43,803 bases of DNA, taken from NCBI GenBank assembly GCA_003554525.1, contig PWGO01000051.1, positions 1-43,803 of the forward strand, written 5' to 3'. This document shows, in pieces, positions 24,798 through 28,713 of this stretch (the stretch's first letter is position 1; every line of letters begins with the position of its first letter). Source of the DNA: Syntrophomonadaceae bacterium. Its GTDB lineage: Bacteria; Bacillota; Dethiobacteria; DTU022; PWGO01. The translations under genes were made by a program, and so were the position numbers. The notes beneath the pieces were generated by a model that was not told the DNA's origin, searched no databases, and was given only the letters and a program-made list of their open reading frames with translations.

Positions 24798-25265
24798 ATG
24801 CTGCCTATTCCAGACAGGTACAGGTTTGCCCTGGGAGCAAGTGAAGGGGAGCACACCCTTACTGCATTTGATAATGCGCTCCTGGAGGCGGGCATTGGTA
24901 ATGTAAATTTAGTCAGGATAACCAGCATTTTGCCTCCCCGGGCCAGCGAAGACGGCAGCCTGGAACCCCCTTACGGGGCGCTGGTACCTGCAGCATACGG
25001 GGTCTGCACTTCGCAGGAACCGGGGGAGATCATATCTGCGGCAGTAGGCGTAGGGCTTTCCGGGGGTTCCATGGGGGTTATCATGGAAGCAGCCGGCAGA
25101 TGTTCCAGGCAGGAATCTGAAAAAAAAGTAGCCGGCATGCTTGAAGAAGCATTTGCCACCAGGGGGATGCTCCTGGAAGAGGTTGTAGTTAAAGGTGTGG
25201 AGCACAGGGTAATCACGGCGGGAGCAGCTTTGGCTTCTGTAATCCTGTGGTACCGTGATGGATAA
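24798..25265 (+). CDS. Pyruvoyl-dependent arginine decarboxylase
   Basis: GASEGEHTLTAFDNALLEAGIGNVNLVRITSILPPRA (predicted Thr-Ser self-cleavage context), adjacent to speE/speB. Confidence 0.9.
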   Translation: MLPIPDRYRFALGASEGEHTLTAFDNALLEAGIGNVNLVRITSILPPRASEDGSLEPPYGALVPAAYGVCTSQEPGEIISAAVGVGLSGGSMGVIMEAAGRCSRQESEKKVAGMLEEAFATRGMLLEEVVVKGVEHRVITAGAALASVILWYRDG

Positions 25266-25325: not shown

Positions 25326-26165
25326 ATGGAACTCTGGTTTACAGAAATGCAGACGCCTTACCTTAAATTAAGCTTTCAGGTAAAAGAAATTCTTGCTCAA
25401 ACAAAATCAACCTGCCAGGAAATAGTTGTGCTGGATACTGAAGTGTTTGGCAGGGTGTTGGTGCTGGATGGCTTTATTCAAGTGACTCAGATGGACGAAT
25501 ATATTTATCACGAAATGATTTCGCATGTTCCCCTGGTTACCCACGGCAGCCCCGGGGAAGTGCTGGTGATTGGGGGAGGGGATGGTGGTACCGTAAGGGA
25601 AGTTTTGAAACACCCGGAAATAAAAAAAATAACCCTGGTAGAGATAGATGCTGAGGTTGTAGAAGTTTGCCGCAGATACTTGCCGGAAACCGGCAGTTAT
25701 TTAGACGACCGCCGGGTACATATACAGATTGAAGACGGGTTAGAGTTTTTAAAAAACAACCCGGAACAGTTTGACGTTATAATTGTAGATTCTACAGAAC
25801 CGGTAGGGCCGGCCAAAACTCTTTTTAGCCGAGAGTTTTTCCGCAGCTGTTGGAATGCGCTGAAAGAGGATGGAGTTATGGTATCTCAAACCGAATCCCC
25901 TTTTTACAACCGGGACATACTGGAGCGTTCTTTTCAATTAACCCGGGAGCTTTTCCCGCGCTGCGGGACTTATTTTGCTCCCGTACCTTCTTACCCGGGT
26001 GGTATATGGAGTTTTACTATTGGCTCCGGCCGTAGAAACCCTTGTAAAATAGAGGCTAAAGAAAAAGCACAAAGTATAAATACAAGATGCCGCTATTATT
26101 CACCACATATTCATGAGAGTTCGTTTTCGCTGTTTCCCCTTTATCCCGGTAAGGGGGAGGGATAG
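25326..26165 (+). CDS. speE: Spermidine synthase (polyamine aminopropyltransferase)
   Basis: ELWFTEMQTP..., VLVIGGGDGGTVREVLKHPEIKKITLVEID, VDSTEPVGPA. Confidence 0.96.
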   Translation: MELWFTEMQTPYLKLSFQVKEILAQTKSTCQEIVVLDTEVFGRVLVLDGFIQVTQMDEYIYHEMISHVPLVTHGSPGEVLVIGGGDGGTVREVLKHPEIKKITLVEIDAEVVEVCRRYLPETGSYLDDRRVHIQIEDGLEFLKNNPEQFDVIIVDSTEPVGPAKTLFSREFFRSCWNALKEDGVMVSQTESPFYNRDILERSFQLTRELFPRCGTYFAPVPSYPGGIWSFTIGSGRRNPCKIEAKEKAQSINTRCRYYSPHIHESSFSLFPLYPGKGEG

Positions 26166-26170
26166 GAGAT

Positions 26171-27037
26171 ATGGAGCCTGTACTGGAGATAGAAAGGAAA
26201 ATAACCCTGGAAGGGGTTTGTGAGAGCTGGGATGATGCCCGGTCGGTCCTTTTGGGAGTTCCGCTGGATACTACTTCCAGCTACCGTGCGGGATCCCGTT
26301 TCGCCCCGGAGACTATAAGGGGCGTATTTTGGGAAAGCATGGAAGATTACAGCCTCCGCCTTGGCAGCCACTTTACAGAAGCCCGCCTGTTTGACTGGGG
26401 GAATGTGGTTTTGCCCCGGGGAAATATCACCCGGGAAATAGAGGTGGTTAAAAAGGCGGTAGACAGGATCGTGGGCAGCGAAAAGAAACCCCTGCTGCTG
26501 GGGGGAGAGCACGCGGTAACTGTTGCCGCGGCAAAAAGTGTGAGGGAGCGTTATCCTGACTTGCAGTTAATTCACCTGGATGCACACGCGGACCTCCGGG
26601 AGAGCTATATGGGGGAAGAGTTATCGCATGCATCTGTGATTTACTATCTGCTGGAGCAGGGATTAGCTTCTATTTACCAGGTGGGAATCCGTTCTTGCAC
26701 TGTAGATGAAGCAGGGCTGGCCCGGCAGAAAACCGGCTTCTATCCTTACAACCTTTACGGTTCCTTGCAAGAGGTAGTATCTGCGGTGGGGCAAAAACCG
26801 GTATACGTTTCCCTGGATATTGACGTGGTAGACCCTGCTTATGCTCCAGGGACGGGCACACCTGAACCGGGGGGAGCTACTTCCAGTGAATTGCTGGAGG
26901 CTCTGGTGTTATTAAAAGGGCTTAACCTGGTGGGTTTTGACCTGGTAGAAGTGTCTCCTCCCTACGACTGCAGCAATATTACTTCCATACTGGCGGCCAA
27001 GATATTACGTGAAGTTGCCGTATTACTGGATATTTAA
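26171..27037 (+). CDS. speB: Agmatinase
   Basis: LLGGEHAVTVAA, IHLDAHADLRESY, YVSLDIDVVDPAYAPGTGTPEPGG. Confidence 0.96.
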   Translation: MEPVLEIERKITLEGVCESWDDARSVLLGVPLDTTSSYRAGSRFAPETIRGVFWESMEDYSLRLGSHFTEARLFDWGNVVLPRGNITREIEVVKKAVDRIVGSEKKPLLLGGEHAVTVAAAKSVRERYPDLQLIHLDAHADLRESYMGEELSHASVIYYLLEQGLASIYQVGIRSCTVDEAGLARQKTGFYPYNLYGSLQEVVSAVGQKPVYVSLDIDVVDPAYAPGTGTPEPGGATSSELLEALVLLKGLNLVGFDLVEVSPPYDCSNITSILAAKILREVAVLLDI

Positions 27038-27081
27038 CTGGGAAAGCAATAATATACTTGCCTAAAGTAAGGAGGAAAAGC

Positions 27082-28713
27082 ATGAGTAAGTACATATTTG
27101 TGACCGGCGGCGTGGTATCATCCCTGGGTAAAGGTATTACTGCAGCTTCTTTGGGGTGCCTGTTAAAAAGCAGGGGTTTTAAAGTCAGCATTCAAAAACT
27201 GGACCCGTATATTAACTACAACCCCGGGAACATGAGTCCTTTTCAGCACGGGGAGGTGTTTGTAACTGAAGATGGCGCCGAAACCGATCTGGATCTTGGC
27301 CATTATGAAAGGTTTATTGACGAAAATCTTACAGAAAAAAACAACTACACCGCGGGTAAGATATACTGGTCAATTATTAGAAAAGAAAGTGAAGGGGAAT
27401 ATGAAGGGGTTACGGTTCAGGTTATACCTCACGTTACCAACGAAATAAAAAAGCGGATAAAAGAAGTAAACCACGAAAATCAGCTGGATGTTTTAATATG
27501 CGAGGTAGGAGGTACGGTTGGGGATATAGAAAGCCTGCCTTTTCTGGAGGCTATAAGGCAAATGAAGACAGATGTAGGGAAAGAAAATGTAATCTATATC
27601 CATGTCACGTTAATGCCTTTCTTGCCCTCTACCGAAGAACTAAAAACCAAACCCACCCAACACAGCGTAAAAGAATTGAGAAGCATAGGCATTCAACCTG
27701 ATATAATTGTGTGCCGGAGTGAACATGCCCTTTCCCAGGGCATAAAAGATAAAATAGCCCTCTTTTGTGACATCCAGCCCCATGATGTGATAGTTAATTT
27801 CAATGCAGACAGCACTTATGAAGTCCCGCTGCTTTTGCAGAAGGAAGGCATTGATGAAATAGTTGCTGGGAAACTGATGCTGGAGGGAAAAGACAGTACT
27901 GGGAAACAGCTGGAAAAATGGCAGCAAACGGTAGAAAAGCTCAGGAACCTGGAAGAAGAAGTTAAAATAGCGCTGATAGGTAAATATGTATCCCTGAAAG
28001 ATGCTTACCTTAGTATTTCTGAGGCCCTGGATCATGCTGGCACTCACCGTGAATGCAGGGTTTCCATATCCTGGATAGAAGATGAATTGCTGGAAAAAGA
28101 GGAGCCGGAAAAAATACTAAAGGGTATGCATGGAGTAATTATCCCGGGGGGCATAAATGAAGGCGCATCCGGCCTGGAAGCCAAGATAAAAGCAGTAAAC
28201 TGGGCGAGGCTAAATGAAGTCCCGTTTATGGGAATAAATGTGGGGATGCACAGCGCAGTAGTAGAGTTTGTTCGCAATGAATGCGGCTGGAAAGGGGTCA
28301 ACAGTGTGCAGGTAGACCCGGAAACTCCCCACCCGGTTATTGTTCACCTGGAGCAGCCTGGCCTGAACGGCGGACACGGCATCCCCCTCAAGGGAGCATT
28401 TGACTGTGAGTTGAATGAAGGCGGCGTGGCTTATACCATATACGGAAAAGATTGCATTAAAGAACGATGCCACCACTCTTACGTGCTAAACCCGGAATAT
28501 GTTTCCACCCTGGGAAGCAGAGGAATGGTGGTAAGCGGATCTCTGGCAGCAGATAACCGGATACCCTTAATTGTAGAACTCCTCTCTCACCCGTGGTTTG
28601 TCTCTACTCAGTTCCACCCGGAGTTCAAATCGCGCCCTCTTTCTCCACATCCGCTGTTATGTGATTTTATTGAAGCTTCCAGGCGGAAAAACAAAGGAAA
28701 AATAAAAAAATAA
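27082..28713 (+). CDS. pyrG: CTP synthase with normal synthetase domain but degenerate class-I glutaminase domain
   Basis: [23 protein letters not shown]..., [37 protein letters not shown], but GINVGMH replaces GICLGMQ; ATG at 27082. Confidence 0.95.

Follow-up and report, generated by a model that had tools for sequence, protein, structure and literature searches.

How a CTP synthase could obtain nitrogen when its glutaminase domain lacks the catalytic cysteine is the question raised by one gene in the 43,803-nucleotide stretch of DNA analyzed here (the window). The pyrG-like frame starts with an ATG and is free of stops throughout, and its 543-aa product matches CTP_synth_N (PF06418) with 425 bits. 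The initial annotation, made from the sequence alone, had described a CTP synthase with a dead glutaminase domain in which Asn replaces the nucleophilic Cys, and translation, Pfam, and motif alignment bear this out (Table 1). Against NCBIfam TIGR00337, the protein scores 700 bits, far over the curated cut-off of 462.75, and is thereby labeled a glutamine-hydrolyzing CTP synthase. Because a protein without the Cys passes it, this cut-off is no test of catalysis, and automatic annotation, which assumes a glutamine-dependent CTP synthase, can be expected to misstate the nitrogen donor. More generally, family-level amidotransferase labels can misname it.

Table 1. Features of the pyrG locus (window coordinates; residue changes in E. 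coli PyrG numbering).
Feature	Coordinates	Strand	Reading	Basis
Pyruvoyl-type arginine decarboxylase (pdaD-like)	24798..25265	+	Start of the inherited neighborhood	
speE	25326..26165	+	Spermidine synthase-like	
speB	26171..27037	+	Agmatinase-like; 44 nt 5' of pyrG	
Ribosome-binding site	27070..27075	+	AGGAGG, 6 nt upstream of the pyrG ATG	Read directly
pyrG-like gene	27082..28713	+	Encodes a 543-aa CTP synthase, glutaminase domain inactive	Translation, Pfam, NCBIfam
Synthase domain (CTP_synth_N)	27088..27879	+	Residues 3-266; canonical ATP/UTP/Mg residues; P54/H57/V60 tunnel-gate equivalents kept	Pfam, residue mapping
Codon for N50	27229..27231	+	Equivalent to E. coli T51, linked to GTP activation (PMC9138612); canonical PyrG has Thr in 99%, G001 has Ala	
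Degenerate class I GATase (glutaminase) domain	27994..28671	+	Residues 305-530; predicted fold intact	Pfam, conservation counts, structure prediction
Oxyanion loop/L11 lid	28144..28173	+	Ile at 353, 2-residue insert, R356S; insert also in G001	Alignment, residue mapping
Nucleophile codon	28237..28239	+	AAT, Asn386 (E. coli Cys379)	Translation, residue mapping
Wing/GTP motif	28369..28395	+	GGTxRLG to GHGIPLKG (T438I, R440L, L441K); adjoins a low-confidence model stretch	Alignment, model, mapping
ERHRHRYE motif	28462..28485	+	ERCHHSYV (H467C, R468H, R470S, E472V)	Alignment, residue mapping
FHPEF motif	28612..28626	+	His512/Glu514 kept from the former triad (E. coli H515/E517)	Alignment, residue mapping

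Mapping on E. coli PyrG shows that the Cys-His-Glu triad of the window protein is incomplete: Cys379 is replaced by Asn, and the His and Glu are present. The further changes include E403Q, at what we take to be a glutamine-binding residue, and R356S, G360A, T438I, R440L, R468H, R470S, and T51N. A review of CTPS implicates T51, R356, G360, T438, R440, R468, and R470 in GTP activation (PMC9138612), and all seven of these positions are altered in the window protein, as is the R104 position in the L4 loop (S103). Translation and alignment reproduced the motif readings of the initial annotation, including the retained synthase motifs. For the oxyanion loop, which reads PGGINEG, the substitution it had reported stands, but the loop is also two residues longer, an insertion that it had not mentioned. 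The loss of the GTP site likewise goes beyond that annotation, as does the lineage-wide loss of other glutaminases described below.

The nucleophilic Cys is present in 121 of the 124 PyrG sequences surveyed, the exceptions being the window protein (Asn), the PyrG of G001, a genome from the same family (Ser), and one Oscillospiraceae MAG (Gly). The last of these, from Oscillospiraceae bacterium SIG439 (SVJQ01000003.1; L083:6001-7605), is near-canonical in its other motifs; either a sequence error or a further natural case of a glutaminase-dead CTP synthase could account for it. When we scanned 98 genomes of the class for a GATase motif without Cys, only the window matched; the pattern demanded His or Gln after GM and G001 was therefore invisible to it.

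The synthase half presents a different picture. The equivalents of E. coli K18, K40, D72, E140, D147, E149, K187, K189, and K223 are unchanged, the tunnel-gate residues P54, H57, and V60 are intact, and among all checked synthase-site residues only the variable D240 position deviates. Taking 77 outside PyrGs as a reference and counting a position as conserved if it is the same in at least 93% of them, we found 20 of 63 conserved positions altered in the glutaminase half. The synthase half differs at only 4 of 94, and two of these four (T50 and L108) are implicated in GTP activation. At 70-75% identity of the synthase halves, the GATase halves of live PyrG pairs are 58.7 +/- 4.1% identical, compared to a mean of 45.4% and a maximum of 49.4% for the window copy. 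The AlphaFold2 model of the protein (pLDDT 91, pTM 0.90) superimposes on E. coli CTPS with a TM of about 0.94 and is lowest in confidence at residues 426-432, a stretch of the wing close to the former GTP site. According to this model, the GATase domain retains the glutaminase fold with its nucleophile replaced. The confident fold together with the residue losses suggests a domain that is folded, yet has not been preserved as a glutaminase under GTP control.

The gene order pdaD-speE-speB-pyrG-...-rho is common to the window, G001, and the sister family f5 (40 relatives compared), and the f5 PyrG in this arrangement is canonical, with the Cys present. In a tree of the synthase domains, the window and G001 copies are joined (SH-aLRT 95 and 94) and lie near f5. 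Both its position and its placement in the tree make the window pyrG the counterpart of the f5 PyrG, passed on vertically at this locus, and the polyamine genes beside it represent inherited synteny, since the sister family has a normal PyrG in the same neighborhood. This affects the proposal that the enzyme is a neofunctionalised paralog that joins UTP to a different amine, e.g., the agmatine or putrescine made by the adjacent genes. The adjacency to pdaD-speE-speB speaks for such an acceptor, but it is shared with the fully canonical PyrG of f5, and the tunnel gate and the checked UTP/ATP-site residues (except D240) are unchanged, making a new substrate extremely unlikely. A polyamine function, about which the initial annotation had speculated, was rejected because the synteny is ancestral.

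The PyrG of G001 has lost a set of residues that overlaps the set lost in the window protein. Both genomes belong to family f1 and were assembled separately, so that chance or a single read error is ruled out; against a sequencing error, the initial annotation had already argued from the coordination of the losses. Whether relatives share the Asn has a two-part answer: G001 shares the loss of the nucleophile but carries Ser at this position, in the only PyrG that it has. The dead PyrGs of both genomes contain the loop insert and a Val after the nucleophile position, for which a single loss in a common ancestor, followed by further drift (Asn versus Ser), is the simplest reading. Scanning for named public relatives brought up sister-family PyrGs and those of other phyla, but no close relative of the window species; a phage collection yielded 16 PyrG matches, and among the matches listed the records were unannotated.

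The initial annotation had raised the possibility of a second, canonical pyrG in the window genome (190 contigs totaling 2.3 Mb; completeness 96.6%, contamination 3.1%; the genomes of the order compared here are probably all MAGs). Such a gene lies on contig C73. Its product is fully canonical, is 58% identical to the window copy, and groups with G002 and family f3 in the synthase-domain tree (SH-aLRT 97). The tetranucleotide profile of C73 matches that of the window at 0.96, and several of its neighboring genes have 50-65% orthologs in G001, as the window genes do. By these two measures C73 seems not to be foreign DNA from binning, and contamination as the source of the second copy was rejected.

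The coexistence of a dead and a canonical PyrG in one genome would suit a regulatory or structural partner of the C73 enzyme, which would join it in mixed tetramers or filaments and modulate CTP production without contributing to it; it is established that CTPS is oligomeric and forms filaments (see also PMC9138612). We consider this role unlikely because G001 has the dead type alone and because both dead PyrGs keep the synthase site, which a mere scaffold would not need. The canonical copy could also have made the window gene redundant, leaving it in decay and on its way out, and the fast evolution of the glutaminase half agrees with this. The near-live conservation of the synthase half, the intact frame and ribosome-binding site, and the presence of the dead type as sole PyrG in G001 render decay quite improbable.

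We favor, with a probability of roughly 0.8, an ammonia-dependent CTP synthase as the product of the window gene, with a GATase domain of purely structural function. Glutaminase activity would have disappeared in the ancestor shared with G001, within a move of the whole lineage from glutamine to free ammonia as nitrogen donor. The synthase domain would phosphorylate UTP with ATP, as in the standard CTP synthase reaction, and would then aminate the product with free NH3 that probably enters at the cleft between synthase and GATase domain. That this NH3 would come from solution is suggested by a GATase domain devoid of the nucleophile, of likely glutamine-binding residues, and of the GTP switch. 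An enzyme unable to use glutamine had already been proposed in the initial annotation, with ammonia-only synthesis among its options, and the latter appears to be the best reading of the multiple coordinated losses in the glutaminase site, as judged from sequence.

Parallel losses affect other enzymes of G001 (96% complete, 1% contamination). One CarA, on contig C10, shows Cys to Gly and HPE to HPR exchanges; in the other, on C27, the Cys is replaced by Ser and the His/Glu are lost. GuaA has Gly for Cys and has lost the His, and a PabA/TrpG-like protein has Gly for Cys and HPA for HPE. The NadE protein carries a nitrilase-type domain, an unrelated fold, without the Cys and Lys motifs that are kept in G008 and G009. 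In AsnB, Cys1 is changed to Ser; AsnB-like proteins that lack Cys1 are also known from unrelated biosynthetic roles, which weakens the AsnB evidence. The his operon (hisD-hisB-hisA-hisF, C8:153718-157141) does not contain hisH, the gap between hisB and hisA being almost nil, and HisH was not found in G001. Neither PurQ nor GlmS was found in G001, and NagB is present. A family search of the whole genome did not detect glutamine synthetase, and GOGAT, AmtB, and PII were not found in the 1.85 of 2.1 Mb (88% of the genome) that were read; GDH is present. The PurF Cys and the GatA amidase motif are intact, indicating that the switch from glutamine is not total and that G001 is not strictly glutamine-free. 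The genes for both CarA proteins, the PabA/TrpG-like protein, NadE, and GuaA, all glutaminase-dead, are distributed over contigs C10, C53, C27, C10, and C6 (L158, L164, L169, L332, L259).

These losses also bear on a trans-acting amidase, which the initial annotation had listed as an option: a separate glutaminase would deliver NH3 to the window PyrG, and such arrangements are known for other amidotransferases (PMC3376133 Table 1). Nothing that we found favors this option. Given that neither the window nor G001 encodes a glutaminase beside pyrG and that most glutaminases are lost in G001, supply in trans is very unlikely.

The window genome itself encodes glutamine synthetase and live CarA, HisH, GlmS, PurF, PurQ, GuaA, and PyrG and, as a whole, is therefore not ammonia-only. 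It has two GuaA proteins, a dead one on its contig C10 (L327:271-1782) and a live one on C147 (L162:526-2148). The dead GuaA groups with the dead GuaA of G001 beside f5 and is encoded in the same guaA-purE-purF order, and the live GuaA groups with G002 and f3. GuaA thus repeats both the dead/live pairing and the tree pattern of PyrG. Furthermore, NadE is of the short ammonia type (254 aa), and three AsnB-like proteins (C8, C76, C61; L193, L194, L195) do not have the N-terminal catalytic Cys.

Two histories fit these data: an ammonia-dependent ancestor, with live copies regained later in the window genome, or an ancestor with both sets, of which the live ones were lost in G001. Under our preferred reading of the window gene, the canonical glutamine-using PyrG and GuaA that now also occur in its genome are possibly such regained copies. 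We give even odds to a broader scenario in which family f1, both in G001 and in the ancestral line of the window genome, dropped glutamine as donor for most amidations and ran on free ammonia before the window genome regained live copies. The chances are similarly balanced that glutaminases of non-homologous classes (class I triad, N-terminal Cys, and nitrilase-type) were lost or inactivated in this way in the synthesis of CTP, GMP, carbamoyl phosphate, NAD, Asn, His, and folate-type compounds.

The window protein shares its predicted two-domain architecture with canonical bacterial PyrG (TIGR00337; E. coli, T. thermophilus). Structure alignment with solved bacterial PyrGs gives 45-48% identity, and the checked synthase-site residues are the same except for one variable position; it differs from them in lacking the nucleophilic Cys and the likely glutamine-binding and GTP-activation residues. 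A comparable case is mammalian mitochondrial CPS1, which is ammonia-dependent and whose ancestral class I glutaminase domain is inactive, Ser294 standing in place of Cys (PMC4655335). Both proteins keep a vestigial class I glutaminase whose nucleophile is replaced, but CPS1 is a eukaryotic ATP-grasp enzyme that requires N-acetylglutamate, and its use of ammonia is proven, whereas that of the window PyrG is inferred. Single-domain NadE is an ammonia-only form in a family with glutamine-using members as well (PMC3376133), as we propose for the window PyrG; such a NadE, however, has no glutaminase domain, and its ammonia form is regarded as ancestral, whereas the window PyrG has the domain in an inactivated state. 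The E. coli CTPS variant G352P has no glutamine activity and is almost fully active with NH4Cl (PMC9138612). This is a laboratory mutant with in vitro NH4Cl activity, of which the window gene would be a natural, lineage-stable version.

Across the roughly 800 genomes of one survey, pyrG always occurred fused to a glutaminase, and ammonia-only forms were recorded for NadE alone among the tabulated families (PMC3376133 Table 1). Our search of the open-access literature did not turn up a CTP synthase that is glutaminase-dead in nature. If the window gene does encode a natural ammonia-only CTP synthase, it would offer a clean system for studying roles of the glutaminase domain beyond hydrolysis, such as assembly, NH3 gating, and filaments. 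With glutaminases of unrelated folds lost in parallel within one lineage, one can test when and why cells are able to forgo glutamine channeling, e.g., in ammonia-rich anoxic habitats.

A match to glutamine synthetase (GS) is absent from 24 of 71 genomes of the order, several of which are more than 95% complete and encode a normal PyrG. GS loss is thus not sufficient for inactivation, since several GS-less genomes keep a canonical PyrG. With the window genome and G001 excluded and phylogeny ignored, the mean number of changes at conserved PyrG glutaminase positions was 4.8 in GS-less versus 2.0 in GS-bearing genomes (p=0.007), and the synthase half showed no difference (p=0.36). In a comparison that took relatedness into account, two to three independent pairs agreed and about none disagreed (p 0.25). 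The link between GS absence and decay of the PyrG glutaminase across the order is therefore suggestive only. One sister-family PyrG, from G035 (C220; L150), keeps the Cys and is altered at 16 of the 63 conserved glutaminase-half positions in a genome without glutamine synthetase, perhaps representing an independent decay in progress.
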